This document shows, in pieces, positions 5,205-29,930 of a stretch of 29,930 bases of DNA. Positions within the stretch are counted from its first letter, which is position 1; each line of letters starts with the position of its first letter. Origin of the DNA: a virus; the IMG/VR virus record IMGVR_UViG_3300025151_007460, positions 1 to 29,930 of that record; one strand, given 5' to 3'. The translations under genes and the position numbers were made by a program. A model generated the notes under the pieces. That model did no database searches. It saw nothing but the letters and a program-made list of their open reading frames with translations, and was not told the origin of the DNA.

Positions 5205-5223
5205 TTTGGGTATTTAATTACAG

Positions 5224-7323: not shown

Positions 7324-7332
7324 GTGACAATA

Positions 7333-9993: not shown

Positions 9994-10966
9994 AATTTTT
10001 AGAAGAACAGTAAAAGACAGGCGTAAAGGCAACAGTTGGGAACTGTTATACCATTTAAAAGAAGGCATAGAAGCGGCGGGAGATGAAGCAGTAATAGTGA
10101 ACGAACACAGGACTGGACCAACAGTGCCAGGAGAAATGATACCAACTGCACCCATGGCCGCCATGTTTGGTTATGGCGGTGACAAACAGATGCATCATAC
10201 AAAAGGTAGACGTAGAGAACTTGCAGACAACTGTAGGGCAAAAAATATTCCCTTGATAACATTTGATGGAGGATTGTTATCTAGTTTTGGCAATGTTTCA
10301 ACATCACCAGATCATCATTTTAGGGTGTCACTATACACACCAATGAATGACGGAGATTTTCTTTCTGACAACAGTCCTAGTGATCGCTGGGAGATGATGG
10401 TAAAAAAATTCAATGTGAAGTACGAACCATGGCGCAAGTCGAATCAGGAAGATCCAATCATATTTGTCTTGCAACCGTCTGACAACTGGAGTATGAATGA
10501 GTTGGACCCAATTGACTGGTTCAACGGGGTGTATGAAAAGTTAAGGCCAATCACTGATAGAAAATTTATCGTTCGTCCTCATCCAAACAACGTGGCGCCA
10601 ATCGTTGACCGTATAAAGGAGTTACCAGAAGATATAGAATTACAATACACACAAAAACATTTTGTCGGTGACGAGAAAAAATATTATAGGTTTCATTTTC
10701 AAGAAGCCATAACACATGCCCACGCTGTGGTCACACACAACTCCACTGCCAGCACTGACAGTTGTATAAGGGGTATACCAACATTTTGCACCTCCAACCT
10801 TGCACTGTGTTGGCCTGTGTGTAATAAAGACCTCAACAACATTGAAACGCCCGAATATCCGGACAGGACGCAATGGGTCAATGACCTTGGCTACAAGATG
10901 TGGAGCATCAAAGAAATTAGAGACGGAACAGTTTACAAAAGGTTCAAATCAAAACTAGGTTTATAA
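9983..10966 (+). CDS. GT-B-like surface-glycan transferase, paralogue C
   Basis: This is a 327-aa member of the same family, with a longer N-terminal part containing LLYHLKEGIEAAGDEAVIV at about 20-38, a GT-B-like first Rossmann segment. The core motifs are intact: ITDRKFIVRPHPNNV (about 190-204) with the full RPHP, AVVTHNSTASTDSCIRGIPTFCT (about 250-272), then IETPEYPDRTQW and a C-terminal KEIRDGTVYKRF. RPHP plus 'H.S....D....G.P.F' is the pattern of capsule/CDP-glycerol transferase-like GT-B enzymes. It lies directly after paralogue B (11-nt overlap) and overlaps asnB by 1 nt. The sugar it transfers is unknown. Confidence 0.78.
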   Translation: MKVEIFRRTVKDRRKGNSWELLYHLKEGIEAAGDEAVIVNEHRTGPTVPGEMIPTAPMAAMFGYGGDKQMHHTKGRRRELADNCRAKNIPLITFDGGLLSSFGNVSTSPDHHFRVSLYTPMNDGDFLSDNSPSDRWEMMVKKFNVKYEPWRKSNQEDPIIFVLQPSDNWSMNELDPIDWFNGVYEKLRPITDRKFIVRPHPNNVAPIVDRIKELPEDIELQYTQKHFVGDEKKYYRFHFQEAITHAHAVVTHNSTASTDSCIRGIPTFCTSNLALCWPVCNKDLNNIETPEYPDRTQWVNDLGYKMWSIKEIRDGTVYKRFKSKLGL

Positions 10967-12681: not shown

Positions 12682-12685
12682 TGTC

Positions 12686-13561
12686 ATGCCAACCCTAGCA
12701 GTAGTAACAACTTTCCCGCCAAACAGATGGAGTACCTATGCCAAAAGGATGATTGATAGTCATGTGCAATTTTGGCCTGAGGATGTGACTCTGTATGCTT
12801 ACTATGAAGGCGCCAAGCCTGACTACAATCATGCAAAAGTAAAATTTATTAACACCGAAGAAGCGAATCCTGAACTAATGAAGTTCAAACAGCGACATAA
12901 AGATGATCCAGTTGCTAACGGTGAAACTCAAGAAATACCAGGCGGAGTGAGACGAGATCCTAATGCCGGTAATAATGACAAAGGAAAAGGATCTTACCTG
13001 TGGGACTCTATAAGATTTGCACACAAAACATTTGCAGTTGACCATGCACTGAAAAATTTACAAACAGATTATGTGCTATGGTTAGACGCCGACACGTACA
13101 CTTTCAGACCGATATCGACTGAATTTGTCACAGGATTGTTGCCTTCAGACAAACTTGTAAACTTTCTCGGTAGAGGAGACAAATATCCTGAATGTGGTTG
13201 GGTCTGTTACAACAGGAATCATAAAAAACGTAAAGAGTTTATGGAATACTGGACAAACTTGTACATACAGGACACAATATTCAAAGAACTAGAATGGCAT
13301 GACAGTTATGTATTTTGGCAATGCGTTAAAAGAATTGCACCAAACGATGGAGTTGATATTGGTAAAGGTGCTGGTGCAAAAGGACATCATGTCTTTGTAA
13401 ACAGTGTGCTTGGATCATATGTTGATCATCTAAAAGGCAAAAGAAAAATAAAGGGTAAAAGCAGTGCGAGTGATCTAAGGATGGCACGTGATGAGGATTA
13501 TTGGAAGAACGTCGAATCATACGATCCATTCGGTGGCTTGAAATTTGATCCAAAAAAATAG
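12686..13561 (+). CDS. GT-A-like glycosyltransferase, paralogue 1
   Basis: This is a 291-aa protein with a GT-A-like layout: an N-terminal strand TLAVVTTFPPNRW, a pre-catalytic helix SIRFAHKTFAVDHAL, and the metal-binding motif YVLWLDADTYTF at about 130-141 (Asp-Ala-Asp). A C-terminal VNSVLGSYVDHLKG block is shared with the 290-aa protein at 14734-15606, which also has 'D..RF..K.FA', LDAD and 'S.LG.Y.DH.KG'. The two are clear paralogues separated by the ColD-like gene. There is a 4-nt gap after asnB. Donor unknown. Confidence 0.82.
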   Translation: MPTLAVVTTFPPNRWSTYAKRMIDSHVQFWPEDVTLYAYYEGAKPDYNHAKVKFINTEEANPELMKFKQRHKDDPVANGETQEIPGGVRRDPNAGNNDKGKGSYLWDSIRFAHKTFAVDHALKNLQTDYVLWLDADTYTFRPISTEFVTGLLPSDKLVNFLGRGDKYPECGWVCYNRNHKKRKEFMEYWTNLYIQDTIFKELEWHDSYVFWQCVKRIAPNDGVDIGKGAGAKGHHVFVNSVLGSYVDHLKGKRKIKGKSSASDLRMARDEDYWKNVESYDPFGGLKFDPKK

Positions 13562-13579
13562 TAAGCATAATTACTTGAA

Positions 13580-14737
13580 ATGAAATATCCATTAGCATTT
13601 TCAACTTGGGGTGTTGAAGAAACAAACGCAATACAAAAAGTTGTCGACTCCGACATGTACACCATGGGTAAACATGTCAAACAATTTGAAAATGAATTTG
13701 CTGAATTGTTCAAAAGTCCAAACGCGGTAATGGTGAATTCTGGTTCGTCGGCAAACCTGTTAATGTTAAGTTTGTTGAAATGGAAATACAAACTGAAAGG
13801 TGACATCATAGCGCCTGTTGTAGGATGGGCCACAACATATTTTCCAATAGCACAGAACGGCTTTACAATAAATTTTGTAGATGTTGATCCAGACACATGG
13901 AACATCGATGTACAAAAGATCGAACAATCAATCACATCTAACACCTGTGCAATTATGCCTGTAAACTTGTTAGGCAACAGTTGTGACTATGATGCAATAC
14001 GAAGTATTTGTGATAAGCACGGTTTGATGTTGATCGAAGACAACTGTGAATCGATGGGAGCAAAGTTTAATGGACAGTACACGGGTACATTTGGCCTTGC
14101 AGGATCATTCAGTTTCTTCTTCAGTCACCACATACAGACAATGGAAGGTGGAATGGTATTGTGTAAAAACAAGGACGATGCAGATTATCTAAGAAGTATG
14201 AGGGCACATGGCTGGGTGAGAGACCTGCCAGACAATTCGTCTCTTTACAAAAAAACTGGAAATGCATTCAATGACAATTTTATATTTGCTACTCCCGGAT
14301 ACAACTTAAGACCATTAGAAATGAGTGGTGCTATTGGATCAGTACAACTGGGCAAATGGGATAGCATCATGCAAACGAGACTTGAAAACGCAAAACACTT
14401 TGTAGAACTTTTTAGCGACAAGCCATGGTGTAGGATACAAAAGGAATTAGGTGAGAGTAGTTGGTTTACATTTGGAATGGTCCTTGACGGAGCACTAAAA
14501 GGACGTAGGACAGATGTAATACAAGCATTGGACAAAGCAGGAATACAGAACAGACCTTTAGCATCGAGGAACTTCTTGAACCAACCTGTGATGCCCAACC
14601 TTGACCACACAGTAATAGGATCAATGGAGGCCGCAGATGACATACATGACAACGGTTTCTTTGTTGGCAATGGAAGTGTCGCACTAAAAGAAGAAATAAG
14701 TCTCCTATATGAAATAATATCAGGAATGGTAAAATGA
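13580..14737 (+). CDS. DegT-fold sugar 3-dehydratase, ColD-like (active-site Lys replaced by His)
   Basis: This 385-aa protein belongs to the DegT/DnrJ/EryC1/StrS PLP-dependent family: GSSANLLMLSLL (about 55-66), a cofactor-ring strand LIEDNCESMGAKF (about 151-163) and GSFSFFFSHHIQTMEGG (175-191). In aminotransferases of the family the residue at position 183 is the Schiff-base lysine; here it is His. That substitution marks the dehydratases ColD and RfbH/E1, which use PMP to remove the C-3 hydroxyl from a 4-keto-6-deoxy sugar nucleotide. The length fits ColD (about 388 aa) better than E1 (about 437 aa), and no extra C-terminal iron-sulfur Cys cluster is evident. It probably makes a 3-deoxy sugar precursor. 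It overlaps the next gene by 4 nt. Confidence 0.88.
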   Translation: MKYPLAFSTWGVEETNAIQKVVDSDMYTMGKHVKQFENEFAELFKSPNAVMVNSGSSANLLMLSLLKWKYKLKGDIIAPVVGWATTYFPIAQNGFTINFVDVDPDTWNIDVQKIEQSITSNTCAIMPVNLLGNSCDYDAIRSICDKHGLMLIEDNCESMGAKFNGQYTGTFGLAGSFSFFFSHHIQTMEGGMVLCKNKDDADYLRSMRAHGWVRDLPDNSSLYKKTGNAFNDNFIFATPGYNLRPLEMSGAIGSVQLGKWDSIMQTRLENAKHFVELFSDKPWCRIQKELGESSWFTFGMVLDGALKGRRTDVIQALDKAGIQNRPLASRNFLNQPVMPNLDHTVIGSMEAADDIHDNGFFVGNGSVALKEEISLLYEIISGMVK

Positions 14738-15606
14738 AAACATTAACTATTGCTACCACGTGGGGGACCAAGTATTGGCCTAATCCAGTTCGGCCTTGTG
14801 TCGAAAGCACGATTGCGAATTGGCCTGCTCATGCAAAAATATTATTGTACCCGGATGACATGTCACAAAAGATAGAATCAGATAGAGTAGAATACATAGA
14901 CTTGTGCCAAGCACAACCAAATTTGCAGGCATTCATAGACAGGCATAAAGACAATCCTGAACTAAATCCACGGATTAGACAGAACAAAGAAGAACAAGCA
15001 GGTTTTGACAAAGACACATCAATATATGTGTATGACGCAGTGCGTTTCAGTTACAAAGTTTTTGCCTGCATAGATGCATGGCAAAGGACCAAACCCGACA
15101 TGCTCTGGTTCTTAGATGCTGACCTGTTGACATTTGAAAAGATCCCAATGTCTTGGTTAGAACACATCATACCTGACTCTTCTTTCACTTCGTACCTCGG
15201 CAGGCCAAAGAAAGGATTTTCTGAAACTGGTTACTATGCATTCAACACTGCTCACAAGTACGCAGGAGAATTTTTCAACAGATGGGAACAATACTACACA
15301 GAAGATTTATTCTTCAACATACAAAAAGGATTCCTTAACCATTTCCCAATCGCTGGCTACACCGATTCATTCACGTTTGATGCAGTGAGAGTTGAAATGG
15401 AGCAGGCTGGTAAAATTAAAAATGAAGATTTGAATGATGGGAGATGGGCAGGAGAAAGAAAAGCACGACACCCATTTATAAACTCTGAGCTCGGCCAGTA
15501 CATGGATCACATGAAAGGCTACACAAGAAAGTCAGCCATGAGCTCTAAGAAAAGGGACCTTACAACCAATCAGACCCATCCATATTGGAAGACACTAAAA
15601 GACTAG
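14734..15606 (+). CDS. GT-A-like glycosyltransferase, paralogue 2
   Basis: This is a 290-aa paralogue of the 12686-13561 product. Shared features include an N-terminal TLTIATTWG strand, a 'D.VRFSYKVFA' helix, the metal-binding DxD in MLWFLDADLLTF (about 123-134), YTDSFTFD, and a C-terminal INSELGQYMDHMKG. No signal peptide or membrane helix is seen. The ATG overlaps the ColD-like stop by 4 nt, so the deoxy-sugar enzyme and this transferase are likely made together. It could transfer the sugar that enzyme helps to produce; that pairing is inferred from position only. Confidence 0.82.
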   Translation: MKTLTIATTWGTKYWPNPVRPCVESTIANWPAHAKILLYPDDMSQKIESDRVEYIDLCQAQPNLQAFIDRHKDNPELNPRIRQNKEEQAGFDKDTSIYVYDAVRFSYKVFACIDAWQRTKPDMLWFLDADLLTFEKIPMSWLEHIIPDSSFTSYLGRPKKGFSETGYYAFNTAHKYAGEFFNRWEQYYTEDLFFNIQKGFLNHFPIAGYTDSFTFDAVRVEMEQAGKIKNEDLNDGRWAGERKARHPFINSELGQYMDHMKGYTRKSAMSSKKRDLTTNQTHPYWKTLKD

Positions 15607-15616
15607 CATTGTAAAT

Positions 15617-16555
15617 ATGGTTATGAGATCATTAATCACCGGTTGCCAAGGCTTCATTGGAAAAAACCTAGCACAGCATTTGAAAAAACAAGGGCATCAT
15701 GTCACAGGCATAGACAAGAAACTTAAAGTAGGTGATCCTGTTTTTGTAGACGAGTTCGTTGGACATGACATGGAATCGAGGATCACAATCGAAAATGATT
15801 TCGATAGAGTTTACCATCTATCAGCAGATGTGCCAAACTCAAAAAATGTTGGGTCTGCACAACTAGGAACGGGTAGAAGCAATCCAATACAGTCAATACA
15901 AGCAATGGACTTTGCGGCAAAAAATAAATCTCATTTGATCTACGCCTCAAGTGCTATGATATACAACACAGATCATCAAGGACATAATGGTCCAGATCTA
16001 AAAGAAGACGAACACATATGGCCAGCACAACCTGCCGGCAACATATACGGAATGGAAAAACTGTACAACATGCAATTGGCACAAGAGTACGCTAAGAGTT
16101 ATGGAATAAAAGTCTCACTGCCTATATTTCATGCCATGTATGGACCACACTGTGATGTGTTAGAAAATTCAAAAGTGGTGGCCGCCACATGTTTAAAAAT
16201 TTTACAGGCAGACGACCCAGGTGAAATAGAGATATGGGGCGATGGAACACAAATCAGATCATTCTGTTACATAGACGATCTCATGGTGGGATTGGACAAA
16301 TTGATTGAGAACGATGTTCAGGTTCCAATTAACATGGGATCCGACGAAGCGATAACAATGACACAACTAGCAGATATGTTGATCAAGATATCGGGAAAGA
16401 AAATAAAAAAGAATTATCTACCATCTGGTCCAGCAGGATGTATGAGAAGGAACTCGGACAACACAAAAATTATGAAACTGACGGGGTGGAAGCCTAACTT
16501 CCCTTTACAGGAGGGTCTTGAAAGGACGTATGAATACGTCAAGACAGTTTTATAA
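15617..16555 (+). CDS. extended SDR, GDP-mannose 3,5-epimerase-like
   Basis: This 312-aa nucleotide-sugar SDR has the Rossmann motif TGCQGFIG (8-15), Ser111-Ser112 and the catalytic Tyr144-x3-Lys148 (YGMEK). Its second half carries blocks typical of GDP-mannose 3,5-epimerases: EIWGDGTQIRSFCYIDD, a 'NMGSDE' strand and RRNSDNTKIMKLTGWKP near the C-terminus. GDP-fucose or GDP-colitose synthase-type chemistry (epimerase/reductase) is the main alternative. Together with the ColD-like enzyme it suggests a GDP-linked deoxyhexose. The start could also be Met3 at 15623; neither has a clear Shine-Dalgarno. It overlaps the next gene by 1 nt. Confidence 0.9.
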   Translation: MVMRSLITGCQGFIGKNLAQHLKKQGHHVTGIDKKLKVGDPVFVDEFVGHDMESRITIENDFDRVYHLSADVPNSKNVGSAQLGTGRSNPIQSIQAMDFAAKNKSHLIYASSAMIYNTDHQGHNGPDLKEDEHIWPAQPAGNIYGMEKLYNMQLAQEYAKSYGIKVSLPIFHAMYGPHCDVLENSKVVAATCLKILQADDPGEIEIWGDGTQIRSFCYIDDLMVGLDKLIENDVQVPINMGSDEAITMTQLADMLIKISGKKIKKNYLPSGPAGCMRRNSDNTKIMKLTGWKPNFPLQEGLERTYEYVKTVL

Positions 16556-17427
16556 TGAGGGTAGAAGTTTGGCCAGGTTTTGGCCCTCTTAATTCAAAAG
16601 AAATATTCGAAAAATTTATAAATTCCTTGCATAACTCGGGCGATGAGGTGCACATCAACAGAGAAGCAAACGGCGATGTTGCAGTGATATGGAGTGTCCT
16701 GTGGCAAGGACGTATGCGTCAAAACAAACAAGTGTGGGATCGTTTCCGTAATTCTAACAAGCCAGTGGTGGTGATAGAAGTAGGCGGTATCAAAAGGAAT
16801 GAAACGTGGAAAATTGGGATAAACGGTGTTAACAGAGAGGCAGACTTTGCCAATGAGAATGTTGACGAGAACCGTTGGAAAAAGTTTGGAATCAATTTGA
16901 GGCCATGGGGACAAACAGGAGATGACATAATTGTGTGTGGGCAACACACTGACAGTCATCAATGGAGGAATAATCCACCAATGTCAAAATGGTTTGATCA
17001 GCAGATCACAGGAATAAGAAAACACACAGACAGGCCAATCGTTATTCGTCCACACCCCAGAAACAGTGTTTTCATAGACACCAACAAATATCAAAACGTT
17101 AAAATAGTAAGACCCATAAGAGATCAGAAGACATATGATGATACAGACCTTGCAGAACGATTGAAATCAGCATGGGCGGTGGTGAGTCATTCCAGCAATC
17201 CGGCCATGACAGCAGTGTTCTCTGGCATACCTGTGTATGTGTCGGAATCAAGTCTAAGTTATGATGTTGGTAACACATCGTTCGCAAACATAAACAATCC
17301 TGCGATGCCTGAAAGACAAACATGGGCCAATCGGTTAGCATACACAGAATGGTGGATAGACGAGATAGAACAAGGCATACCTTGGAATAGGATCAAAAAA
17401 CAATTGAAGGAAAAGTATTTGAAATGA
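16555..17427 (+). CDS. GT-B-like surface-glycan transferase, paralogue D
   Basis: This is the fourth member (290 aa) of the window's GT-B-like family. It has the full motif HTDRPIVIRPHPRNSV (about 156-171), then AWAVVSHSSNPAMTAVFSGIPVYVSESS (about 205-232) and a C-terminal RLAYTEWWIDEIEQG matching the same region in A, B and C. The N-terminal third (VEVWPGFGPLNSKEIFEKFINSL) looks like the first Rossmann half. It overlaps the SDR gene by 1 nt and the next gene by 4 nt. Its sugar specificity cannot be read; family placement is by motif. Confidence 0.77.
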   Translation: MRVEVWPGFGPLNSKEIFEKFINSLHNSGDEVHINREANGDVAVIWSVLWQGRMRQNKQVWDRFRNSNKPVVVIEVGGIKRNETWKIGINGVNREADFANENVDENRWKKFGINLRPWGQTGDDIIVCGQHTDSHQWRNNPPMSKWFDQQITGIRKHTDRPIVIRPHPRNSVFIDTNKYQNVKIVRPIRDQKTYDDTDLAERLKSAWAVVSHSSNPAMTAVFSGIPVYVSESSLSYDVGNTSFANINNPAMPERQTWANRLAYTEWWIDEIEQGIPWNRIKKQLKEKYLK

Positions 17428-18146
17428 TCGAACCCATCGAGTGGAAACCATATCAAGGAGAAAAAGTCTGTGTCAATACAATAATCAGAGGCGGTAAAAA
17501 AATTCAAGAATGGCAATTTTACGAAGATCGAGTAAAGGCAGTTCCTAGAGGCAATGCGTATTGTATAGGTAACGGTCCGTCACGTAAAGGGTTTGATCTT
17601 TCACTCCTTAGAGACACAGGACAGTTGTATGGTTGTAATGCACTGTACAGAGACATCCTACCAGATTTTATTTTTTCCGTTGATGCTAAGATGACTGCAC
17701 AGATGATAAAAGACGAGGTAGGATTAAAGACAATACACTATGCGCCTTCGTTAGAAGTAAACAGAGACAAGACAAAAATGTTACATTTGATCCCAAACAA
17801 TCCGCATTGGATATCGGGCAACCAAGCATTTTGGACGGCAGGTGTACATGGACATAGGAACATATATCTTATAGGTTACGATTTCAGAGAATACGGTGCA
17901 GGAGAACTTAACAACATATATCAAGACACACCTAATTATGGTGAACGTAATGCTGATACCATATTTGACGGATGGCTCAAACAATTCAGACACATGATCA
18001 AACTAAGACCTTACATTAATTTCACAGTTGTCCATGATAGTCCACCAGAGTACCTTCACCATTTACAGACAGGCACTGACCTAGGCAACACTAAAGTTAT
18101 AAGTTATAAAGAGTTGGAGACGGTGTTAGCATCTAGCAAGGCCTAG
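17424..18146 (+). CDS. GNGPS-motif protein, sialyltransferase/DUF115-like
   Basis: This 240-aa protein has AYCIGNGPSRKGFDLSLL (about 45-62), then YGCNALYRD (69-77) and DFIFSVDAKM (81-90). That 'GNGPS..., CN..., D' order is the nucleotide-binding pattern seen in GT42-type sialyltransferases and in DUF115/MptE-like proteins of flagellin- and glycan-modification loci. A later strand NIYLIGYDF also fits GT42-type proteins. It is therefore likely to use a CMP- or other nucleotide-sugar, but family and substrate are not settled by eye. It is the last gene of the sugar block; its end overlaps the convergent SprT-like gene by 21 nt. Confidence 0.7.
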   Translation: MIEPIEWKPYQGEKVCVNTIIRGGKKIQEWQFYEDRVKAVPRGNAYCIGNGPSRKGFDLSLLRDTGQLYGCNALYRDILPDFIFSVDAKMTAQMIKDEVGLKTIHYAPSLEVNRDKTKMLHLIPNNPHWISGNQAFWTAGVHGHRNIYLIGYDFREYGAGELNNIYQDTPNYGERNADTIFDGWLKQFRHMIKLRPYINFTVVHDSPPEYLHHLQTGTDLGNTKVISYKELETVLASSKA

Positions 18147-18602
18147 TCCAGCACTTGCAAATTTTGTCCGCCAAGCAAAAAAGTTTTTATTATGGTTCGA
18201 ATAAGGATCTTTCAGCCAAGTCATTTGGTAAAGGTGCACCATTTCGTGTGCTAATGTTTCTATGAAGTCTTTCCATTTTGGAAACTTACAGTGTAACTCT
18301 ATAAAGTAATCAACATCAATATGATACGGAATTACTCTTTGATCAAATTTACCTCTTGGTGTTTTTCTATTGTCCCAATTAGCGACACACCTACCCCAGT
18401 CTTTATGAAGTTTCCTTATGTGCAACGGAACCATTGGTAATCTACTGTTGAACAAAGCACGATTTATGTATCTGAACCATTGATATGCCTGTTGCTCGGT
18501 TGGTCTGAATCCTTTCTTATTCTTGTATCTGGTCTCAGTATTTTCCAACCTAATTTTCAATAGTTTTTTAACGTTTACCTTTTTACTTTTAGTTTTTTTC
18601 AT
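18126..18602 (-). CDS. SprT-like zinc metalloprotease
   Basis: This is a 158-aa basic protein with the zinc-binding motif LAHEMVHLYQ (HExxH) and a downstream SNHNKNFFAW, typical of the SprT/Spartan-like family whose members cleave DNA-protein crosslinks in cells. The N-terminus is a Lys-rich segment (KKTKSKKVNVKK). The ATG at 18602 is preferred; a TTG 18 nt upstream is in frame. No Cys4 zinc ribbon is seen at the C-terminus. It is transcribed against its neighbours on the minus strand and is the only such gene between the sugar and UvsW modules. SprT-like genes are common in T4-like marine phages; the substrate in infection is unknown. Confidence 0.88.
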   Translation of the reverse strand: MKKTKSKKVNVKKLLKIRLENTETRYKNKKGFRPTEQQAYQWFRYINRALFNSRLPMVPLHIRKLHKDWGRCVANWDNRKTPRGKFDQRVIPYHIDVDYFIELHCKFPKWKDFIETLAHEMVHLYQMTWLKDPYSNHNKNFFAWRTKFASAGLGLARC

Positions 18603-18604
18603 GG

Positions 18605-18632
18605 TTGACAGTTTTACCAATTATGCTATAAT
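18605..18632 (+). promoter_or_regulatory. consensus sigma70-type promoter upstream of the HARP-like/uvsW operon
   Basis: A perfect TTGACA (18605-18610) and a perfect TATAAT (18627-18632) are separated by 16 nt on the plus strand. Transcription would start near 18639, about 18 nt ahead of the ATG at 18657. Consensus host-type promoters are used by T4-like phages for immediate-early genes, so this operon may be expressed at once by the host polymerase. The promoter sits between the divergent SprT-like gene and this operon and overlaps the 5' end of the former. Confidence 0.85.
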
Positions 18633-20010: not shown

Positions 20011-21477
20011 ATGAGCAGTTGTAAACTAGTAATAAAAGACGAAGTAAACGTTAAGTTTGAGAACCTTAGCCTCGAATGGCGTAAGAGATTATCTAATAAA
20101 TTCAAATATGAAATACCATATGCAAGGCACTTGCCCGCAGTAAAACTAGGAAGGTGGGATGGTAAGGTCAGTTTCTTTGGTCTTGGAGGCACAACATACC
20201 TCAACCTTGTGGACCAAATCCTGCCAATATTGGATGAAGGAGGAGTGTACGTCGACTTCGAAGATCGCAGGAAAAAACACAACTTTGAATTTAAGGCAGT
20301 GGACAAAGATTTCCTAGCACACATCACATGGCCCGACACACATCCATGTGCTGGACAATCAATACAGTTACGAGACTATCAGGTTGAAACAATAAACAAG
20401 TTTATTGAAAACCCACAATGCATACAGGAAATTGCCACAGGAGCAGGTAAAACTATAATCACAGCGGCATTGTGTCAGTTGGTAGAACCGTACGGCAGGA
20501 CGCTTACTATTGTTCCAAATAAAAGTTTAGTCACGCAAACAGAGGAAGACTTCTTGGCCTGTAACCTCGATGTTGGGGTGTACTACGGAGACAGGAAGGA
20601 ACTAGGAAGATACAACACAATCGCGACATGGCAGTCATTGAACGTGCTAGAGAAGAAAAGCAAGGACGAACACACAACAGATTTTTTAGAAGCGATACAA
20701 GGTATAAGCACAGTCATAATTGATGAGGTGCACATGGCAAAAGCAGATGTATTGAAAAGATTGTTGACAGGGCCATTCGCACACTGCGGCATACGTTGGG
20801 GTCTGACAGGCACTGTACCAAAAGCAGACTATGAATTTATGGGTCTGAAGTGTAGCATAGGAGAAGTGGCAAACAGAATACAAGCGAGTGAACTACAAGA
20901 CAAAGGAGTTTTAGCAAACTGTCATGTAAACGTTCTGCAAACACAGGATCATCCACAGTTCAAAACATACGGTGAGGAGTTGAAATGGTTAACCACAGAC
21001 ACTAACAGGATGTCTTGGGTGGCCAACACAATCAAAGATATAGCAACGTCTGGAAACACACTGATCCTTGTTGATAGAATATCAGCAGGAGAAATATTAG
21101 AGAAGAAAATTAAAGATGCAGTGTTTGTTTCTGGAGCAACTAAAAACACAGATAGAAAGGAACAGTATGATGAAGTATCTACTAGCCAAAATAAAGTTAT
21201 TATTGCCACATATGGAGTTGCCGCTGTTGGTATTAATATTCCTCGTATTTTCAATCTTGTTCTTATAGAACCTGGAAAGTCCTTTGTTAGGGTAATTCAG
21301 TCAATAGGACGTGGGATAAGAAAAGCCGAGGACAAAGACAGTGTGCAAATATGGGACATCACCAGCAGTTGCAAATTTGCAAAAAGACATCTCGGAGCAA
21401 GGAAAAAATTTTACAAAGAGGCAAATTATCCTTTCAATATAGAAAAAATAGATTATCCAAATAATTTCAACATGTAA
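20011..21477 (+). CDS. uvsW: UvsW, SF2 recombination/replication helicase
   Basis: This is a 488-aa superfamily-2 helicase, close to T4 UvsW in length. Motifs in order are the Q-like LRDYQ (120-124), Walker A ATGAGKT (142-148), DEVH box (238-241), GLTGT (264-268) and motif VI QSIGRGIRKA near 430. The N-terminal 100 residues match the UvsW N-terminal DNA-binding region (LGRWDGKVSFF at 46-56). In T4, UvsW unwinds R-loops and D-loops, regresses stalled forks and anneals strands, helping the switch from origin- to recombination-dependent replication. It follows the HARP-like gene by one base and precedes a small unknown gene by 8 nt. Confidence 0.96.
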   Translation: MSSCKLVIKDEVNVKFENLSLEWRKRLSNKFKYEIPYARHLPAVKLGRWDGKVSFFGLGGTTYLNLVDQILPILDEGGVYVDFEDRRKKHNFEFKAVDKDFLAHITWPDTHPCAGQSIQLRDYQVETINKFIENPQCIQEIATGAGKTIITAALCQLVEPYGRTLTIVPNKSLVTQTEEDFLACNLDVGVYYGDRKELGRYNTIATWQSLNVLEKKSKDEHTTDFLEAIQGISTVIIDEVHMAKADVLKRLLTGPFAHCGIRWGLTGTVPKADYEFMGLKCSIGEVANRIQASELQDKGVLANCHVNVLQTQDHPQFKTYGEELKWLTTDTNRMSWVANTIKDIATSGNTLILVDRISAGEILEKKIKDAVFVSGATKNTDRKEQYDEVSTSQNKVIIATYGVAAVGINIPRIFNLVLIEPGKSFVRVIQSIGRGIRKAEDKDSVQIWDITSSCKFAKRHLGARKKFYKEANYPFNIEKIDYPNNFNM

Positions 21478-21485
21478 ATAGGTTT

Positions 21486-21929
21486 ATGATTAAGAATGTA
21501 TCTTTAATGCATAAGGAACCTTTTAGGTGCAAATGTATTTGTAACGAAAAACTAATTGGTGAAACTTTTAATCAGACCTATCATTATTTTGAAATCAACG
21601 AAACTCCGGCTAAAGTTGTGCTGGAATTTGAACCATTCAAAATTAGGCCACTTTTGCGTTTGAACAAATGCTTGGTAGATACGGGTGTGGCAGAAGTAGA
21701 TGTGTATGATCACAAATACGAAATGTCTTTGAAACCAGATTGGTTAGAGATGTATACAAAAAATATTATAAAATCAAAACAAGAATATCTTAAGAGAGAA
21801 AATTTAGGTAAGGATGCTGATCCCGAGAAAGTGAAAAAATGGTTTGAAGAATATTACTTTGAACAACAAGAGAGAAAATTTTCTTACTACAAGAAAGAAC
21901 TAGACCAAATATTAAGTAATTTACAATGA
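21486..21929 (+). CDS. uncharacterised protein downstream of uvsW
   Basis: I do not recognise this 147-aa protein. The first half has beta-rich segments (KVVLEFEPFKIRPLLRLN at about 44-61) and the second half is a charged helical tail (KSKQEYLKRENLGKDADPEKVKKWFEEYYFE). Two Cys residues lie near the N-terminus (RCKCICNEK). It is 8 nt behind uvsW and overlaps the radical SAM gene by 4 nt. It may be a substrate or partner of that enzyme, or a uvsW-operon accessory protein; nothing in the sequence decides. Confidence 0.7.
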   Translation: MIKNVSLMHKEPFRCKCICNEKLIGETFNQTYHYFEINETPAKVVLEFEPFKIRPLLRLNKCLVDTGVAEVDVYDHKYEMSLKPDWLEMYTKNIIKSKQEYLKRENLGKDADPEKVKKWFEEYYFEQQERKFSYYKKELDQILSNLQ

Positions 21930-23407
21930 AATCCGCACTTTTAGTTAACCTACCAAAATACGATTTACATGCCAGTCCGGGAGCAATTGGCATTATAAGA
22001 GGAATGTGTGAATCTCAAAATTTACAAACCAACACCTTAGATTTCAACGTGTACTTGTATAACAATCTCACAAAGGACGAATGGTGGACTGTCGACAACT
22101 GGTGCAAATTTCTCGACAACAAACTTCCACAGGCCCTCGAAGATAAAATCCTCAATTTGTGGGACAGAGCAGTGCAGGAACATTTACCACGAAGTTGTGA
22201 GTTTATGATGATATCTGTATTCTCATATTGGACAATGTATATTGCACGACTTTTGATAACTCATGAATCTAAAAAACTAAGACCTTACAAACTAGTTGTT
22301 GGAGGCAATGGGTGTATAAGCACTTTCCCAGACACAAAATTATCATTTGAAGAATGGAATCGGAAAGGCAACTACATCGAACACCTATTAATAGGCGAAG
22401 CAGAAATCAAACTATCTGAATTACTCACCAACGGGCAAGTAAAATATAATGAAAACGATTTAGATTCTTTCCCTTTCCCTTCATATGGAGGAGTTAAGTT
22501 TGACGATTATTCCGAAAAAAAATTGTATATCACAGGATCTCGTGGTTGTGTTCGGAAATGTAAATTTTGTGATATAAAGAATACCTGGCCTACCTTTAGA
22601 TTTCGGACAGGACAATCGTTGGTAGATGAAATAAAAAGGCAAGTTGGAGAGTATGGAATTAAAACTTTTGAATTTACAGACAGTCTTATTAATGGCTCGG
22701 TTTCTCAGTTTAGCAAATTCAATGAAATTTTAGCAAACGAAAAACAAAAAAATAAAGACCTAGAGGATGTAACATACATCGGACAGTTCATAGTGAGGCC
22801 AAAAAAGAACATGCCAGAAAGCCATTATGAGGCAATGTACTACGCTGGTTGTAAACAATTGACAACAGGCATTGAAAGTTTTTCAAATTCCGTGCGTGAT
22901 CACATGGGTAAGAAGTTTTCAGACAATGACATAGAATACCATTTAGAACAATCTGCTTTCTGGAATATACCAAATGTCTTTTTAATGATAAGTGGATACC
23001 CAACTGAAACAGAAGAAGATCATGCAAAAAATTTAGCGGATCTTGAAAAATATTCAATGTATGCCAAATTAGGTGTGATAGAATTGATCAGTTGGTGTAC
23101 AATGCACCTCATACCAGACACACCAATTACATCACCAAAAATGATGGAGCATTTCAAATTTTACATGGAAGAGAACGCCACAGCGTTAAAGAATGTAAAC
23201 CATCATATGCCTACTGCTTCTTTCCTATGGTCAACACCAAAAAACAAAGGCAACAACCCAAAAACCAGATTGTTAAGACTCATAGACATACACAGGGTGG
23301 GAGACGAATTAGGTTACAATCAAACTAAAATGGAAGAAAATTTCAAACAATTATTAAAATTATCAGAAAATTATAAAAATAAAAAACAAAATCTACTGTA
23401 CAATTAA
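21926..23407 (+). CDS. B12-binding-type radical SAM protein
   Basis: This 493-aa protein has an N-terminal cobalamin-binding-like Rossmann region. It includes ALLVNLPKYDLHASPGAIGI (about 4-23), LVVGGNGC (about 123-130) and IEHLLIGEAEIKLSELL (151-167). The radical SAM core contains CVRKCKFC with Cys208, Cys212 and Cys215 (CxxxCxxC), binding the 4Fe-4S cluster that cleaves SAM. Downstream strands (KTFEFTDSLING, KQLTTGIES) fit the TIM-barrel. B12-dependent radical SAM enzymes often methylate unactivated carbons or modify RNA, peptides or lipids. The typical B12 signature DxHxxG is not clear, so cobalamin binding is uncertain. It overlaps the preceding gene by 4 nt. Confidence 0.88.
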   Translation: MKSALLVNLPKYDLHASPGAIGIIRGMCESQNLQTNTLDFNVYLYNNLTKDEWWTVDNWCKFLDNKLPQALEDKILNLWDRAVQEHLPRSCEFMMISVFSYWTMYIARLLITHESKKLRPYKLVVGGNGCISTFPDTKLSFEEWNRKGNYIEHLLIGEAEIKLSELLTNGQVKYNENDLDSFPFPSYGGVKFDDYSEKKLYITGSRGCVRKCKFCDIKNTWPTFRFRTGQSLVDEIKRQVGEYGIKTFEFTDSLINGSVSQFSKFNEILANEKQKNKDLEDVTYIGQFIVRPKKNMPESHYEAMYYAGCKQLTTGIESFSNSVRDHMGKKFSDNDIEYHLEQSAFWNIPNVFLMISGYPTETEEDHAKNLADLEKYSMYAKLGVIELISWCTMHLIPDTPITSPKMMEHFKFYMEENATALKNVNHHMPTASFLWSTPKNKGNNPKTRLLRLIDIHRVGDELGYNQTKMEENFKQLLKLSENYKNKKQNLLYN

Positions 23408-24152: not shown

Positions 24153-24585
24153 AAAATTTTTTGACTTACGTAATGGTCTTAAAGCAGTAGACTTTAGAAA
24201 CAAGGATTACTTTGATCGGATAGACGACAAAGAAAAATCATTGTATTCGCCGTACATGCTCATGAGGTACGTGTCCAGCACTTCGTCCAAAGACCAATTT
24301 TATGTTGAACACTATGTGGAGATGGTCAACGAGTGTGTAAACAAACACTGTTTCACGCTAGGCAAACACAAAAAATTGTTATGGGTACTGACCGCAATGT
24401 GTGGATCGTTGCAACAACAATTTCATCCATGGATCAAACCAATGAAGCGTGTTCCAAACAAAAGTTTGAAAAAATTGCAACAGATATACCCAACTTGGAA
24501 AGAGTCTGATTTAGAAACTTTAGATAAAGTAATCACTGACAGGGAACTGGAGGAACTGATAGAAGCACATGGCCTCAACGAATAA
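24133..24585 (+). CDS. 150-aa conserved protein, possible clamp-loader small subunit (gp62-like)
   Basis: This is a 150-aa helical protein: FFDLRNGLKAVDF, then YSPYMLMRYVSS and a HYVEMVNECVNKHCF/KHKKLLWVLTAM segment. The order 'SPYML.RY', long helices, 'W' and a basic stretch (HPWIKP..RVPNKSL) resembles gp62 of T4-like phages, the small subunit of the sliding-clamp loader, which shows little sequence identity between phages. The resemblance is by eye only and there is no gp44 in this window. The ORF overlaps the preceding gene by 20 nt and the next by 17 nt. Confidence 0.7.
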   Translation: MPAEKNRKFFDLRNGLKAVDFRNKDYFDRIDDKEKSLYSPYMLMRYVSSTSSKDQFYVEHYVEMVNECVNKHCFTLGKHKKLLWVLTAMCGSLQQQFHPWIKPMKRVPNKSLKKLQQIYPTWKESDLETLDKVITDRELEELIEAHGLNE

Positions 24586-25252
24586 ATGCACTTATTGTGG
24601 CAAGGAGTTTGCAAAAGCAAGGACGTTACAAGTTCACTTGTGCGAACCTAAACGTAGATATTTGCAACGTGATGAGAAATGGGTAGTAAACGCATTTATG
24701 GTGTTTCAAAGATTCTATCAAATACATCAACACAATTCAAAGCCAAAGACATATGACGACTTTGTGAAAAGTTCGTACTACAACGCATTTGTAAAATTTG
24801 GTCGATTCATTATGCACATCAACCCATTGTACCCAGACAAATACATAGACTATGTTTTGCAATCAAAAGTGAAATTGGATCACTGGGCAAGAGATGATCT
24901 TTATGAATTATATCTAGTAGAAGCGTTGAAGACGGAACCAGTAGAAGCCGCACTGCAAAGAAGTATAGCAACAATGATGGACTGGGCAACAGAACAAAAT
25001 GCACAATGGTCAGACTACTTCAGACTCGTAAACACAAACAGAGCAGTAGCACACATCCAACAAGGCAAAATTAGTCCGTGGTTGTTGTTAGGTTGCAACG
25101 CAGGCAAAAGGATGTTAAAATCATTTAACGACGAACAATTACAAATGATCGAAAAATTTATAAATCCAAGTTTCTGGCCAAGCAAACTAAAAAGTTATCC
25201 AGCGGATCTTATGTTGGTGCAGGACACAGCACGGGAGGCTAAAATTGTCTAA
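24569..25252 (+). CDS. conserved marine-phage protein with N-terminal zinc finger
   Basis: This 227-aa protein starts with a zinc-finger-like motif CTYCGKEFAKARTLQVHLC (Cys7, Cys10, His23, Cys25 as likely ligands), followed by CEPKRR. The helical remainder holds TYDDFVKSSYYNAFVKFGRF (about 53-72) and FINPSFWPSKLKSYPADLML near the C-terminus. I recall close relatives in T4-like cyanophages, all of unknown function; single-stranded or double-stranded DNA binding by the finger is plausible. It overlaps both neighbours, by 17 nt and 8 nt, and lies in the same run as the mini-DnaE gene. Confidence 0.82.
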   Translation: MASTNKCTYCGKEFAKARTLQVHLCEPKRRYLQRDEKWVVNAFMVFQRFYQIHQHNSKPKTYDDFVKSSYYNAFVKFGRFIMHINPLYPDKYIDYVLQSKVKLDHWARDDLYELYLVEALKTEPVEAALQRSIATMMDWATEQNAQWSDYFRLVNTNRAVAHIQQGKISPWLLLGCNAGKRMLKSFNDEQLQMIEKFINPSFWPSKLKSYPADLMLVQDTAREAKIV

Positions 25253-25478
25253 AATAGATATACAAGTTGCAGAGAGTTTAGAATTTGAACATGGTGATAT
25301 TGCAATCACAATCAAACCAGATGGAACAATAGGAAAAGTCATAATGCCCAAGATGGACGAAGAAACTAGGAACAGCGAAGGTTATAGAAAAATGCTTGAC
25401 GTAATAGAACTTTTACAACCCGGATCGAAAGAAGAATTTATAAAACATGATTCAAAAGCAAAAGGAAGTGTACACTAA
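25245..25478 (+). CDS. small conserved phage protein with TTG start
   Basis: This is a 77-aa protein: a beta-rich N-terminal half (FEHGDIAITIKPDGTIGKVIMP) then a charged helical half. The start is TTG at 25245, supported by a strong GGGAGG ribosome site at 25233-25238 with 6 nt spacing. There is no ATG nearby in this frame. It overlaps the preceding gene by 8 nt and the next by 1 nt, so its translation is tightly coupled. The function is unknown. Confidence 0.75.
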   Translation: MSKIDIQVAESLEFEHGDIAITIKPDGTIGKVIMPKMDEETRNSEGYRKMLDVIELLQPGSKEEFIKHDSKAKGSVH

Positions 25479-26068
25479 TGCCTGATGTGGATATAGATTT
25501 CTATGACAGAGACAACACATTAAAGTTGTTCAAGCACACACCTGCGTCTATGATCAAAGACGGCAAGTCAGAGAAGCACAAGACCGGAGTGTATTTCCAT
25601 GCAGTACCAGAACACCCTGTAACTGGACACGCAAGTCTTGATTACAAACAAGCAGAGGACAGAGGATACTTCAAAATAGACTGCCTTAATGTGAACATCT
25701 ACAAGGACGTGAAGTCTGAACAGGAACTGGTTGAACTGATGATACAGGAGCCAGACTGGGACATGCTGAAAGATCCAAAGATTGTTGAAAACCTTTTTCA
25801 CCTAAATGGCCATTATAACATTGTGTCCAAACTTGAACCAAAAACTATAGAACAACTTGCGGCTGTGTTGGCAATAATACGTCCTGCAAAAAGACATCTT
25901 ATGCACAAGCAATGGGTAGACATAATGAAAGAAGTATGGGTGCGTCCAACAGATGGATCTTATTTCTTCAAGAAGTCACACGCTGTTGCATACGCACAGG
26001 CGATAGTAGTGCAGATGAATTTGATGTTAAGGGATAAATATAGTTTTGATGCGACGTCAAAAAAATAA
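25478..26068 (+). CDS. miniature DnaE-like (Pol III alpha) palm protein
   Basis: This 196-aa protein follows the order of the catalytic palm of bacterial DNA polymerase III alpha (DnaE). MPDVDIDF (1-8) matches the DnaE catalytic PDxDxDF motif. KHKTGVYF (33-40) corresponds to KHAGGVVI. GYFKIDCLNV (63-72) corresponds to the KFDFLG block bearing the third catalytic Asp (here Asp68). LAIIRPAKRHLM (131-142) matches the ALFRPGPL block. FFKKSHAVAYAQ (163-174) matches FNKSHSAAYA. All three catalytic aspartate positions (Asp5, Asp7, Asp68) are kept, whereas the PHP, most of the fingers, beta-binding and OB regions are absent. Whether it has nucleotidyl transfer activity is unknown. It overlaps the previous gene by 1 nt. 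Confidence 0.8.
   Translation: MPDVDIDFYDRDNTLKLFKHTPASMIKDGKSEKHKTGVYFHAVPEHPVTGHASLDYKQAEDRGYFKIDCLNVNIYKDVKSEQELVELMIQEPDWDMLKDPKIVENLFHLNGHYNIVSKLEPKTIEQLAAVLAIIRPAKRHLMHKQWVDIMKEVWVRPTDGSYFFKKSHAVAYAQAIVVQMNLMLRDKYSFDATSKK
26033..26040 (+). promoter_or_regulatory. T4-type late promoter (GATAAATA)
   Basis: The octamer GATAAATA matches the NATAAATA form of late promoters in marine T4-like phages and differs from T4's TATAAATA in one base. It lies 8 nt before the ATG of the 56-aa gene and inside the end of the mini-DnaE gene. A chance match in AT-rich DNA is possible. Confidence 0.5.
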
Positions 26069-26219
26069 AAAGAAAATAGAAAATTACCTAAAGAAATCCA
26101 AACAAAAATCCACGTCTTCTCTTCGTTCAGAGTTTAAAAGTTATCAGCCGGATAGTCCTTTGACACAACACTATCTTACAACTGGTGCTATACTTCCTGA
26201 AAAAAAGAAGACTAGGTAG
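26049..26219 (+). CDS. small basic protein (56 aa) with a late promoter
   Basis: This 56-aa ORF fills the interval between the mini-DnaE gene and the convergent minus-strand gene. The protein has a Lys-rich N-terminus (MRRQKNKKKIENYLKKSKQK), a Ser-rich middle and an ending ILPEKKKTR. It starts within the last codons of the mini-DnaE gene (20-nt overlap) and is preceded by the late-promoter-like octamer. Its stop codon lies in the loop of the convergent terminator. The function is unknown; a small basic virion or DNA-binding protein is a guess. It may be missed by length cut-offs. Confidence 0.6.
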   Translation: MRRQKNKKKIENYLKKSKQKSTSSLRSEFKSYQPDSPLTQHYLTTGAILPEKKKTR

Positions 26220-26227
26220 GTCTTCTT
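26200..26227 (-). terminator. rho-independent terminator of the minus-strand gene
   Basis: AAGAAGAC (26205-26212) and GTCTTCTT (26220-26227) form an 8-bp stem around a 7-nt loop TAGGTAG. Read on the minus strand, the hairpin is followed by a U-tract of about seven. The stop codon of the minus gene (26212-26214) and the stop of the plus 56-aa gene (26217-26219) both lie at or in the loop. On the plus strand no U-tract follows, so termination is expected mainly for minus-strand transcripts. Confidence 0.8.
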
Positions 26228-26586
26228 ACTAATTGGATAGTTCTTCTTTTTACCCGTTTCTTTGAAATTTCAGATAATTTCACAGTGGGTCCATGCACTA
26301 TCTCAATATCCTTTGAGTTGAGTGTTACCAATGTTGACCTGAAATATCTAAACTCTCCTTTGAGGAATATGTTGATTGGTAATTTCCTATTGGATTCATG
26401 CCACCATATCTCACCACATTTCAAAAATCTCATTTTGTCCTGTGGCATCATCAGTCTGCCATAATCATAAAAACTGATAACGTTAGCATCTTCGTTCTGG
26501 ACTATACCAACATATTCTAGATCTCCCTTTCTGATCAGGCTCAAAAATGGGAATTTGTCTCTCAGGGTGTTAAAAATTTCGATCAT
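26212..26586 (-). CDS. conserved marine T4-like phage protein
   Basis: This is a 124-aa protein with mixed strands and a very basic C-terminus (SEISKKRVKRRTIQLVRR). The N-terminus begins MIEIFNTLRDKFPFL; a WWHESNRKLPINIFL segment in the middle is memorable from homologues in T4-like cyanophages, all uncharacterised. A good AGGA ribosome site lies 5 nt ahead of the ATG at 26586. It is the only minus-strand gene in this part of the window and ends in its own terminator. Its divergent partner is the late virion gene at 26619. Confidence 0.85.
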   Translation of the reverse strand: MIEIFNTLRDKFPFLSLIRKGDLEYVGIVQNEDANVISFYDYGRLMMPQDKMRFLKCGEIWWHESNRKLPINIFLKGEFRYFRSTLVTLNSKDIEIVHGPTVKLSEISKKRVKRRTIQLVRRPT

Positions 26587-27447: not shown

Positions 27448-28461
27448 ATGAACCTGATCCAGAATACAATTCTGACTAGTCTGCCTGCGGGTAGAAAGAA
27501 AACTCCAAGTGGTTGGATAAGTTTCAACGCACCCTGTTGTGTGTACAATGGCGAGACAGCAGACAAAAAGAAACGTGGTGGCATAATGACCAGTGCTGAT
27601 GGCACTGTAAGTTATCACTGCTTCAACTGTGGCTTCAAAGCAAGTTACGTAATAGGTAGAAAACTTGCGTACAAGATGAGGCAATTCATGGGATACATTG
27701 GCATACCCGATGACACAATACGTAAATTGGCAATAGAGGCAATGCGTGAAGAGGAGGGTGATGTCAAATATGAAAAGAAAAAATTTGTAACATTCAAGAA
27801 AAAAGAATTGCCAAAACACACAAGGTTGCTTGGCGAATGGTTGGAGGAGTACACAGTAGGAACAATGCCAACAGAACAACAAAACAAAATTGATAATCTA
27901 CTGAACTATCTAGCAGGAAGGGGTATAGGTCCCGATTGGTATGACTTCATGTACTCATCTGACAAGCATTGGGACGTTGATAAAAGATTGTTGATTCCAT
28001 TTTATTGGCGTGGCGATGTTGTTGGCTTTACAGGGAGACTGTTTGATCAATCTGACAAAGTGAAATATTACACAGACGTACAGCCGGGGTATGTGTTCAA
28101 CATGGACGCACAAGATTGGACAAGGAAATTTGTTATAGTCACAGAAGGTCCATTTGATGCTATTACCATTTCTGGTGTCAGTATATTAGGATCGGAGATA
28201 AATGATACACAAAGAGAATTAATTGATGGCCTGGGCAGGCAAGTTATTGTGGTCCCAGACAGAGATGCTCCTGGAGAAAAACTAATAGGACAGGCAAAAG
28301 ATTTTGGATGGAGCGTGGCTTTCCCAGAATGGGGAGATGACGTAAATGATGTTGCGGATGCTGTAGCAAAATACGGAAGATTATTTGTCATACAATCTAT
28401 ACTGAAAACAGCAGAATCCAATAAACTGAAAATAGATCTAAAAAGGAAAATGTATGGTTAG
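27448..28461 (+). CDS. 61: DNA primase, gp61-type
   Basis: This is a 337-aa primase of the T4 gp61/DnaG type. Primases of this kind make RNA primers at the replication fork together with the gp41 helicase. The N-terminal zinc-binding region has Cys30-Cys31 and YHCFNCGF (Cys58, Cys61), the region that recognises the template. A TOPRIM domain follows with VTEGPFDAI (Glu near residue 231) and VVPDRDAPG (Asp near 270), its metal-binding motifs. The length is close to T4 gp61 (342 aa). It follows the virion gene with a 10-nt gap and overlaps a radical SAM gene by 8 nt, which separates it from the helicase. Confidence 0.93.
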   Translation: MNLIQNTILTSLPAGRKKTPSGWISFNAPCCVYNGETADKKKRGGIMTSADGTVSYHCFNCGFKASYVIGRKLAYKMRQFMGYIGIPDDTIRKLAIEAMREEEGDVKYEKKKFVTFKKKELPKHTRLLGEWLEEYTVGTMPTEQQNKIDNLLNYLAGRGIGPDWYDFMYSSDKHWDVDKRLLIPFYWRGDVVGFTGRLFDQSDKVKYYTDVQPGYVFNMDAQDWTRKFVIVTEGPFDAITISGVSILGSEINDTQRELIDGLGRQVIVVPDRDAPGEKLIGQAKDFGWSVAFPEWGDDVNDVADAVAKYGRLFVIQSILKTAESNKLKIDLKRKMYG

Positions 28462-29362
28462 TTTTCATATTGAACCTACAAGTAAATGCACACTAGAGTG
28501 CCCGTTGTGTGATAGGACTTGGTTCTACGAGACATTCAAAAAAAGAAACTTGCATGAAATAAACATAGAACACCTTGTTGACTTCGTGGGTGTCAACGCT
28601 GAAGTGGCGATGTGTGGCAACAACGGAGATCCAATATACCATTCACAATTTATTGAACTGTGCAAAAGATTAAAAGACAATAACTGCAAGATTAGTATTA
28701 CAACAAACGGATCCTCAAAGACTAAAACATGGTGGGAAAAATTGAACAACATATTAGATGAAAATGATCTTGTGCAGTTTTCTATTGACGGGTTGGAAGA
28801 CACAAACCATTTATATCGCAGAAACGCAAAATGGAAGTCTATCATGGATGCCATAGAAGTTTTTGCCAGACGTGATTGCCAACTGACATGGAAGTTTATT
28901 GTTTTCAAACACAACCAGCATCAAATTAAAGATGCCAAAGAGTTATCTAAAAAACTTGGATTTGATAATTTCAGATTAGAACACAGCGACAGATGGTTAG
29001 GGAAAAAAGAATTTATGCCTGACAGAGAATTTGTTGATACGTATTACCAACAACAACAGAAAGTTTTGATTGATCCTAGTTTTGAGACTGACATGGAACC
29101 TATGTGCCTTGTTGGTCACACACCAAGCAAAGACTTATACATTGATGCAGAAGGAGATTTTTACCCTTGCTGTTGGATCGGAACATATAGATACAAATAT
29201 AAAAGTTTGTTTTCACCAAAAGAAAACAAGTTCAATATAGCAGACAACACACTAGATGATATTTTAAACAATACCAAAGTAAAAGATTTCTTTGAAACAA
29301 CAAAACAATTTACATCTGCTCATAATTGTTGTAAAATACACTGCGGAAAGAAAAATGGCTGA
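28454..29362 (+). CDS. radical SAM/SPASM-like protein between primase and helicase
   Basis: This 302-aa radical SAM enzyme has the cluster motif CTLECPLC (Cys12, Cys16, Cys19) within the first 20 residues and the core segments AEVAMCGNNGDPIYH, KISITTNGS and LVQFSIDG. Its C-terminal part has MCLVG, FYPCCWIG and NCCKIHCGKK, a Cys pattern like the auxiliary-cluster (SPASM/twitch) region of peptide-modifying enzymes. The ATG at 28454 has an AGGA site 6 nt upstream. It overlaps primase (8 nt) and helicase (8 nt), so it is embedded in the replication operon. The substrate is unknown; peptide or protein modification is suggested by the SPASM-like Cys set only. Confidence 0.88.
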   Translation: MVSFHIEPTSKCTLECPLCDRTWFYETFKKRNLHEINIEHLVDFVGVNAEVAMCGNNGDPIYHSQFIELCKRLKDNNCKISITTNGSSKTKTWWEKLNNILDENDLVQFSIDGLEDTNHLYRRNAKWKSIMDAIEVFARRDCQLTWKFIVFKHNQHQIKDAKELSKKLGFDNFRLEHSDRWLGKKEFMPDREFVDTYYQQQQKVLIDPSFETDMEPMCLVGHTPSKDLYIDAEGDFYPCCWIGTYRYKYKSLFSPKENKFNIADNTLDDILNNTKVKDFFETTKQFTSAHNCCKIHCGKKNG

Positions 29363-29930
29363 ATATACATTTGATGTACAGAAACTTTATATAGAAATGC
29401 TCCTTGCAGATGCAGAGTCATTTGCTAGGGCACAGAACATATTCAAACCTGAATCGTTTGATCGTAAACTACAACCCATTGCCAAGTTTGTAAAAGATTA
29501 CATGGACGAATACAAAGTAATGCCTGAAGTAGAACAAGTGAACGCAAAACATGACATCAAACTTAAATCGGCAAAAGATCTAGATCCAAGTCATTTCAAT
29601 TGGTTGCTAGACGAATTTGAAACATTCTCGAGACACAAGGCACTAGAACGTGCGATACTACAATCCGCTGATATGTTGGAGAAGGGTGATTACGCACCAG
29701 TCGAAGACATGGTCAAGGATGCAGTGAACGTCGGACTGACACGTGATCTCGGTACAGACTACTTTGAGGATCCTAAAGGAAGACTAGAGGCACTCAAGGC
29801 AAACAACGGACAGATCAGTACAGGCTGGAATAACTTAGACAAGAAACTGTTTGGCGGTTTCAACCGTGGAGAACTAAACATCTTTGCAGGTGGATCAGGC
29901 GCAGGTAAGAGTTTGTTCTTGCAGAATCTT
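29355..29930 (+). CDS. 41: replicative DNA helicase, gp41/DnaB-type (partial, runs off the window)
   Basis: The first 192 codons are present. The N-terminal domain (about 1-110) is helical, as in gp41. A linker with STGWNNLDKKLFGGFNRG leads into the RecA-like core, where Walker A GGSGAGKS is seen at about 180-187. The ring helicase unwinds the lagging-strand template and activates the primase. The ATG at 29355 overlaps the radical SAM stop by 8 nt. The 3' end is outside the window, so Walker B and the C-terminus cannot be checked. Confidence 0.94.
   Translation, partial: MAEYTFDVQKLYIEMLLADAESFARAQNIFKPESFDRKLQPIAKFVKDYMDEYKVMPEVEQVNAKHDIKLKSAKDLDPSHFNWLLDEFETFSRHKALERAILQSADMLEKGDYAPVEDMVKDAVNVGLTRDLGTDYFEDPKGRLEALKANNGQISTGWNNLDKKLFGGFNRGELNIFAGGSGAGKSLFLQNL

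Follow-up and report, generated by a model that had tools for sequence, protein, structure and literature searches.

The gene and its neighbourhood

The window analysed here, i.e. the whole stretch of 29,930 nucleotides of IMG/VR virus record IMGVR_UViG_3300025151_007460, carries a complete, ATG-started gene for a 196-aa protein (Table 1). It is a real ORF, located in a gene-dense forward-strand run that constitutes the replication module. The protein matches the profile of phrog_11778 'DNA polymerase' over its full length (E 9.7e-66, residues 3-187) and is a member of the family named here the C-half, after its place at the C-terminal end of a split minimal Pol III alpha (DnaE). Its match with phrog_405 (full phage DnaE) is weak (E 8.9e-07), and that with PF17657 (Pol III alpha fingers) is sub-threshold, with 14.9 bits for a cut-off of 22.

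Table 1. Features of the replication module and of the 196-aa protein (coordinates of the window; residues numbered from the first Met)
Feature	Position	Strand	Basis
UvsW-type helicase, upstream end of the conserved module	20011..21477	+	phrog_16, E 4e-76
phrog_11058 protein, conserved neighbour	24569..25252	+	phrog_11058 match
Probable C-terminal half of a split minimal Pol III alpha (DnaE), 196 aa	25478..26068	+	phrog_11778, AF2 model
DVDID: D3, D5 (= DnaE D401, D403, metal ligands), D7 (= D405)	25484..25498	+	invariant in 221 relatives
H34-x-x-G37 (= DnaE KHAGG, H511-G514)	25577..25588	+	221 relatives; hhalign to KHCGG of compact DnaE
K66-x-D68 (= DnaE K553, D555; third catalytic Asp)	25673..25681	+	221 relatives; hhalign to DnaE 529-642
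R135-P136-x-K138 (= DnaE RPGP 639-642, start of the shortened fingers)	25880..25891	+	invariant in 220 relatives; also search seed
KKSHAVAY: K165, H168, Y172 (= DnaE N-K-S-H, K758-H760; end of the fingers)	25970..25993	+	H168 invariant; also search seed
phrog_11637 protein, small convergent gene	26212..26586	-	small reverse-strand gene at or near the same place in the relatives read
Primase (gp61-like)	27448..28461	+	phrog_47, E 4e-39
gp41/DnaB-type helicase, cut by the window end	29355..29930	+	same ORF as L003:4522-5961, which is phrog_19, E 1e-73

Relatives of the C-half were found by tblastn in 63 of 50,697 phage records, all with at least 80% coverage and about 35-55% identity. The carriers include RaK2, 121Q, GAP32, CBB, PA5oct/Paride and Atu_ph07, as well as Phosso, XacN1, SCTP-2, RAS14, a Vibrio phage and two 141-kb Alishewanella phages. 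At least 455 stretches in IMG/VR hold C-half relatives, and the window belongs to a marine lineage of carriers. In many records the gene is misannotated, either as 'putative membrane protein' or as 'hypothetical protein', e.g. JN882285 (GAP32) and KU574722 (CBB). The CBB protein is a 'putative membrane protein' in KU574722 and a 'DNA polymerase' in NC_041878.

The order of UvsW, the C-half, the small reverse gene, the primase and gp41, with other genes following UvsW and preceding the primase, is common to RaK2, 121Q, GAP32, XbC2 and the window. The dN/dS ratio of the C-half gene versus its relatives is 0.03-0.07, a rough estimate since dS is high. The gene is under strong purifying selection, strong evidence against a fossil, one of the possibilities raised in an earlier note on this DNA.

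Several other genes of the window deserve mention. A radical-SAM protein (21926-23407) is inserted in the replication module before the C-half, and another one with SPASM (28454-29362) lies between the primase and gp41. A SprT-like metallopeptidase is encoded at 18126-18620 on the reverse strand (PF10263, E 2e-07). Positions 3493-17430 hold a block of sugar/surface-modification genes, comprising an NAD-epimerase (4200-5204), a 2OG-Fe oxygenase (8444-9184), an asparagine synthase (10966-12681), a DegT aminotransferase (13580-14737) and, as judged by eye, several glycosyltransferase-like ORFs.

Predicted fold and conserved residues of the C-half

An AF2 model of the C-half was built from 99 diverse alignment rows (pLDDT 92.9, pTM 0.82). 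When this model is compared with the PDB by Foldseek, the first 16 matches are all Pol III alpha or PolC. Using VIA-align, it superposes on PolC (3f2b, residues 971-1310) with a Z of 10.0 over 195/196 residues at 3.6 A, on Taq DnaE (461-851) with a Z of 9.8 over 195/196 residues, and on E. coli DnaE (400-794) with a Z of 9.0 over 193 residues. The highest-scoring unrelated chain has a Z of only 3.2. The model reproduces the fold of DnaE from the DxD motif onward, and the proposal of a family-C palm made in the earlier note is borne out by the predicted structure. Searching the PDB with the single sequence gave only MutH (E 1), a chance match, and a profile of 13 C-halves gave no match among PDB sequences. 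The alignment by hhalign with the single E. coli DnaE sequence is weak (prob 19%, E 0.0012), with KxD and RP in register. Homology to solved DnaE structures thus rests on the model, on hhalign and on phrog_405.

Eight residues (D3, D5, D7, H34, G37, K66, D68 and L70) are invariant across 221 distinct C-half relatives, which reach down to about 35% identity. Their columns lie outside the seeds used for the searches. The motifs quoted in the earlier note (DxDID, HxxG, KxDxL, IRPxK and KxHxxxY) are all present and conserved, the conservation of RPxK and KKSHA being partly built in because these stretches seeded the searches for relatives. The landmarks in E. coli DnaE are P400-D401-F-D403-V-D405, K510-H511, K553-F-D555, R639-P640 and K758-S-H760. 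Its published catalytic triad, D401/D403/D555, places the Mg2+-binding Asp of the C-half at D3, D5 and D68, conserved in 221/221 sequences. The claim that the three catalytic Asp are kept is therefore correct, and the proposed assignment to Asp5, Asp7 and Asp68 has to be revised. D7, which aligns with DnaE D405, never varies either. The C-half thus presents the DxD ... D pattern of the bacterial DnaE/PolC palm. For these alignments, a first version (A1) in which the RaK2, 121Q and GAP32 rows were cut too short was replaced by A3, while A2, with a short RaK2 row, was used solely as a search seed. Two loci have no DxD motif: one (L336) is a fragment at a contig edge and the other (L319) is a broken ORF.

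The model spans DnaE 400-794 only. It has no PHP, thumb, tau-binding, clamp (beta)-binding or OB region as found in DnaE/PolC proper, in line with the earlier note on the PHP, tau-binding, clamp-binding and OB parts. That note also regarded most of the fingers as missing; they are in fact shortened, with RPxK and the KKSHAxAYA helix retained. Counted between landmarks, most of the lost length corresponds to two stretches: D7 to H34 (27 residues versus 106 in E. coli DnaE) and P136 to H168 (32 versus 120). The GRGS motif (DnaE 361-364), the Gly-Ser motif for the dNTP phosphates, is absent from the chain, which begins MPDVD. The ORF starts just two residues ahead of D3, and the Gly-Ser motif carried by DnaE and PolC in the same chain is not there. 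The earlier note is silent on this lack, which is the key to the identity of the protein.

The N-half and a compact one-chain DnaE

In DnaE the Gly-Ser loop is needed and precedes the DxD motif, and the GRGSS loop holds the dNTP triphosphate. PF07733 locates such a motif in a second protein in 12/12 isolate genomes carrying the C-half. This protein, the N-half (phrog_11127), is about 175 aa long and mostly ends with EFL(K/N). Its GRGS loop is invariant, as is WGxGRGSS in 80 IMG/VR sequences. The N-half profile matches residues 210-393 of E. coli DnaE (E 2.6e-07), and its AF2 model (pLDDT 93.5) superposes on DnaE 278/279-393 with a Z of about 9.5-10.5. As the N-half ends at DnaE 393 and the C-half starts at 400, the two proteins tile one DnaE stretch (about 278-794). 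The C-half is hence not a stripped palm standing on its own, as previously supposed: in its relatives the remainder of the palm is a second protein, with its gene at another place in the genome.

The two halves occur together. By BLAST, the RaK2 N-half matches 60 phage records, and comparison of the two lists by eye places 60/60 among the 63 records with a C-half. Of the remaining three records, Slicko01 yields the N-half by profile; the other two are its near twin Slickus01 and a partial record of 109 kb. Among 14 long IMG/VR contigs, the C-half is present in 13/14, the N-half in 13/14 and both in 12/14. Three contigs (G013, G035 and G040) have a C-half with the N-half undetected, and these may be fragments. 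The N-half gene is usually tens to hundreds of kb away from the C-half gene, e.g. about 33 kb in RaK2 and 182 kb in Atu_ph07. A family-B polymerase, expected in such a phage according to the earlier note, is indeed carried by the sister phages, with 12/12 of the C-half isolates tested.

The marine sisters of the window (G036, G037 and G039) hold both the N-half and the family-B polymerase, far from the C-half; in G036 and G039 these two genes are about 120-150 kb downstream of it. Neither an N-half nor a family-B polymerase was matched on 20 contigs of the window's lineage (up to 144 kb), which end before the positions of these genes in the sister genomes. Other T4 core genes are likewise undetected on these contigs. 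Given this and the distance in the sisters, absence from the contigs is uninformative. The idea that the window's lineage lost both genes was dropped, the sisters keeping both outside the reach of the contigs.

Close relatives of the window encode, in addition, a single-chain DnaE of about 560 aa; on 43 contigs its gene lies downstream of the C-half gene at a distance of 3.9-8.6 kb. This compact DnaE has a full Gly-Ser motif (RGSAGSS), DVDID, KVD and fingers elements, and lacks PHP; its Pfam matches are PF07733 (E 2e-43) and PF17657 (E 5e-15). In one example (L003:6692-8377) it is preceded by the gp41-like helicase and by an endonuclease III-like gene of the HhH-GPD type. The window ends at 29930, ahead of this position. 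Matches of 565 aa to the N-half profile near the C-half were considered as fused N-halves and rejected, as they are the compact, complete DnaE. A homolog with 39% identity is encoded together with a family-B polymerase by LR756508, an uncultured phage of 484 kb in which neither N-half nor C-half was found. None of the contigs examined holds both compact DnaE and N-half. The carriers of the compact DnaE do not form one clade on the C-half tree and are interleaved with genomes bearing the N-half.

A probable two-chain polymerase and its known relatives

The homology, the predicted fold, the invariant catalytic residues, the complementary and co-occurring N-half, the module context and the purifying selection point to the following interpretation. 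Most probably, these T4-related phages encode a minimal family-C polymerase as two chains, the window protein being the C-terminal one, and the halves would assemble and polymerise DNA in an auxiliary capacity. The C-half would supply the three metal-binding Asp (D3, D5 and D68) and K66, and its shortened fingers would hold primer-template and dNTP. The N-half of about 175 aa would contribute the GRGSS loop that holds the dNTP triphosphate. The two chains would form a single palm whose active site is shared between them, with the two metals, the primer-template and the base on the C-half side. The assembled pair could then perform nucleotidyl transfer as an auxiliary to the family-B replicase, within the gp41/gp61/UvsW replication-recombination module. 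Its role beside the family-B enzyme can only be guessed: it may serve a single strand, act in repair, or initiate at recombination forks, as UvsW and UvsX are nearby. Three points are inferred: the association of the two halves, DNA polymerisation by their complex, and the presence of an N-half in the phage of the window, of which 29.9 kb are known.

It is worth considering whether the C-half, alone or together with the N-half, has kept its fold but lost polymerisation, and now has a structural or regulatory part, binding either primer-template or the family-B polymerase. Fingers, thumb and clamp-binding regions as found in DnaE are reduced or lost, a family-B polymerase is present in every isolate tested, and no activity is known. 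However, the metal ligands and K66 are invariant in all 221 sequences, at identities as low as about 35%, the N-half likewise shows no variation in its GRGSS loop, and a complete active site distributed over two genes is unexpected for a structural role, which makes this explanation unlikely. A nucleotidyltransferase, as the earlier note suggested, here in the form of a stand-alone enzyme with a new substrate, would agree with the intact Asp triad. This is very improbable, as the Gly-Ser phosphate motif of the Pol-beta type is absent from the C-half but present in the co-occurring N-half. That the truncated C-half, similar to host DnaE, acts as a decoy for the holoenzyme of host Pol III, or is the decaying fossil of a captured dnaE, is hardly credible: nothing specific favours a decoy, the DnaE regions that bind tau, clamp and epsilon are absent, and the low dN/dS, the invariant catalytic residues and the gene order kept between distant phages all speak against it.

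Another possibility concerns the window's lineage, in which the C-half could work with the compact DnaE in place of a separate N-half. The proximity of the two genes on 43 contigs, and the fact that compact DnaE and N-half never share a contig, agree with such a pairing. Yet the compact DnaE has its own complete active site and therefore needs no donor, and the N-half of G036 and G039 lies beyond the stretch covered by the compact-DnaE contigs; we regard this pairing as quite improbable. A further, rather doubtful reading is that this marine lineage has rebuilt its family-C apparatus: the compact DnaE would have taken the place of the N-half, and perhaps of the family-B replicase too, with the C-half kept in the same module as an accessory or swapped subunit. 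If true, a family-C enzyme would replicate the DNA of a T4-related phage. The compact DnaE offers a natural comparison of one-chain and split forms.

Under the preferred interpretation of two assembling halves, a family-C polymerase of replicative type with roughly 370 residues over two genes would be strikingly small. The pair allows a direct test of the Pol III palm as a heterodimer, and of the proposal by Iyer et al. (2021, PMC7824862) that a split Pol III palm resembles an ancestral state. The same authors predicted computationally that group 2.2 jumbo phages have a split minimal Pol III alpha, so that the enzyme is not novel as the earlier note had assumed. The window protein is a real, strongly selected member of a new lineage of this described family, and what is new here is the additional compact DnaE near the C-half in its relatives. 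Our literature search found no later or experimental work on split Pol III alpha. The CBB paper lists a 'Truncated Pol III alpha, 172 aa' (CBB_328, PMC5259590), which by its length and its match in the CBB record is the N-half of the same system. For one cluster of marine jumbo phages, PF07733 was reported in about half of the members (PMC9123017, ISME J 2022), and this protein may be the N-half as well.

Compared with bacterial DnaE and PolC, the C-half shares the palm fold, the equivalents of D401/D403/D555 and K553, and the RP and KSH elements of the fingers. It differs by being about half as long over DnaE 400-794 and by having no PHP, Gly-Ser half, thumb, tau-binding, clamp-binding or OB regions. 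The single-chain DnaE-like proteins of phages (phrog_405, e.g. of Streptomyces phages) belong to the same catalytic family and give the weak match stated above, but they are one chain with the Gly-Ser motif, whereas the window's enzyme is split and reduced. The Alishewanella phage Slicko01 (L090), with a genome of 141 kb, carries the split polymerase below the jumbo size limit. The closest known system remains the one described by Iyer et al., with an N-terminal NTP-binding and a C-terminal Mg2+/template-binding protein encoded by distant genes and a family-B polymerase in the same phages. The presence of the C-half in Slicko01 extends this system beyond jumbo genomes. Iyer et al. (PMC7824862) state that other Pol III domains are absent from phages carrying the split version; the window's lineage therefore differs, since its close relatives add a compact one-chain DnaE near the C-half.
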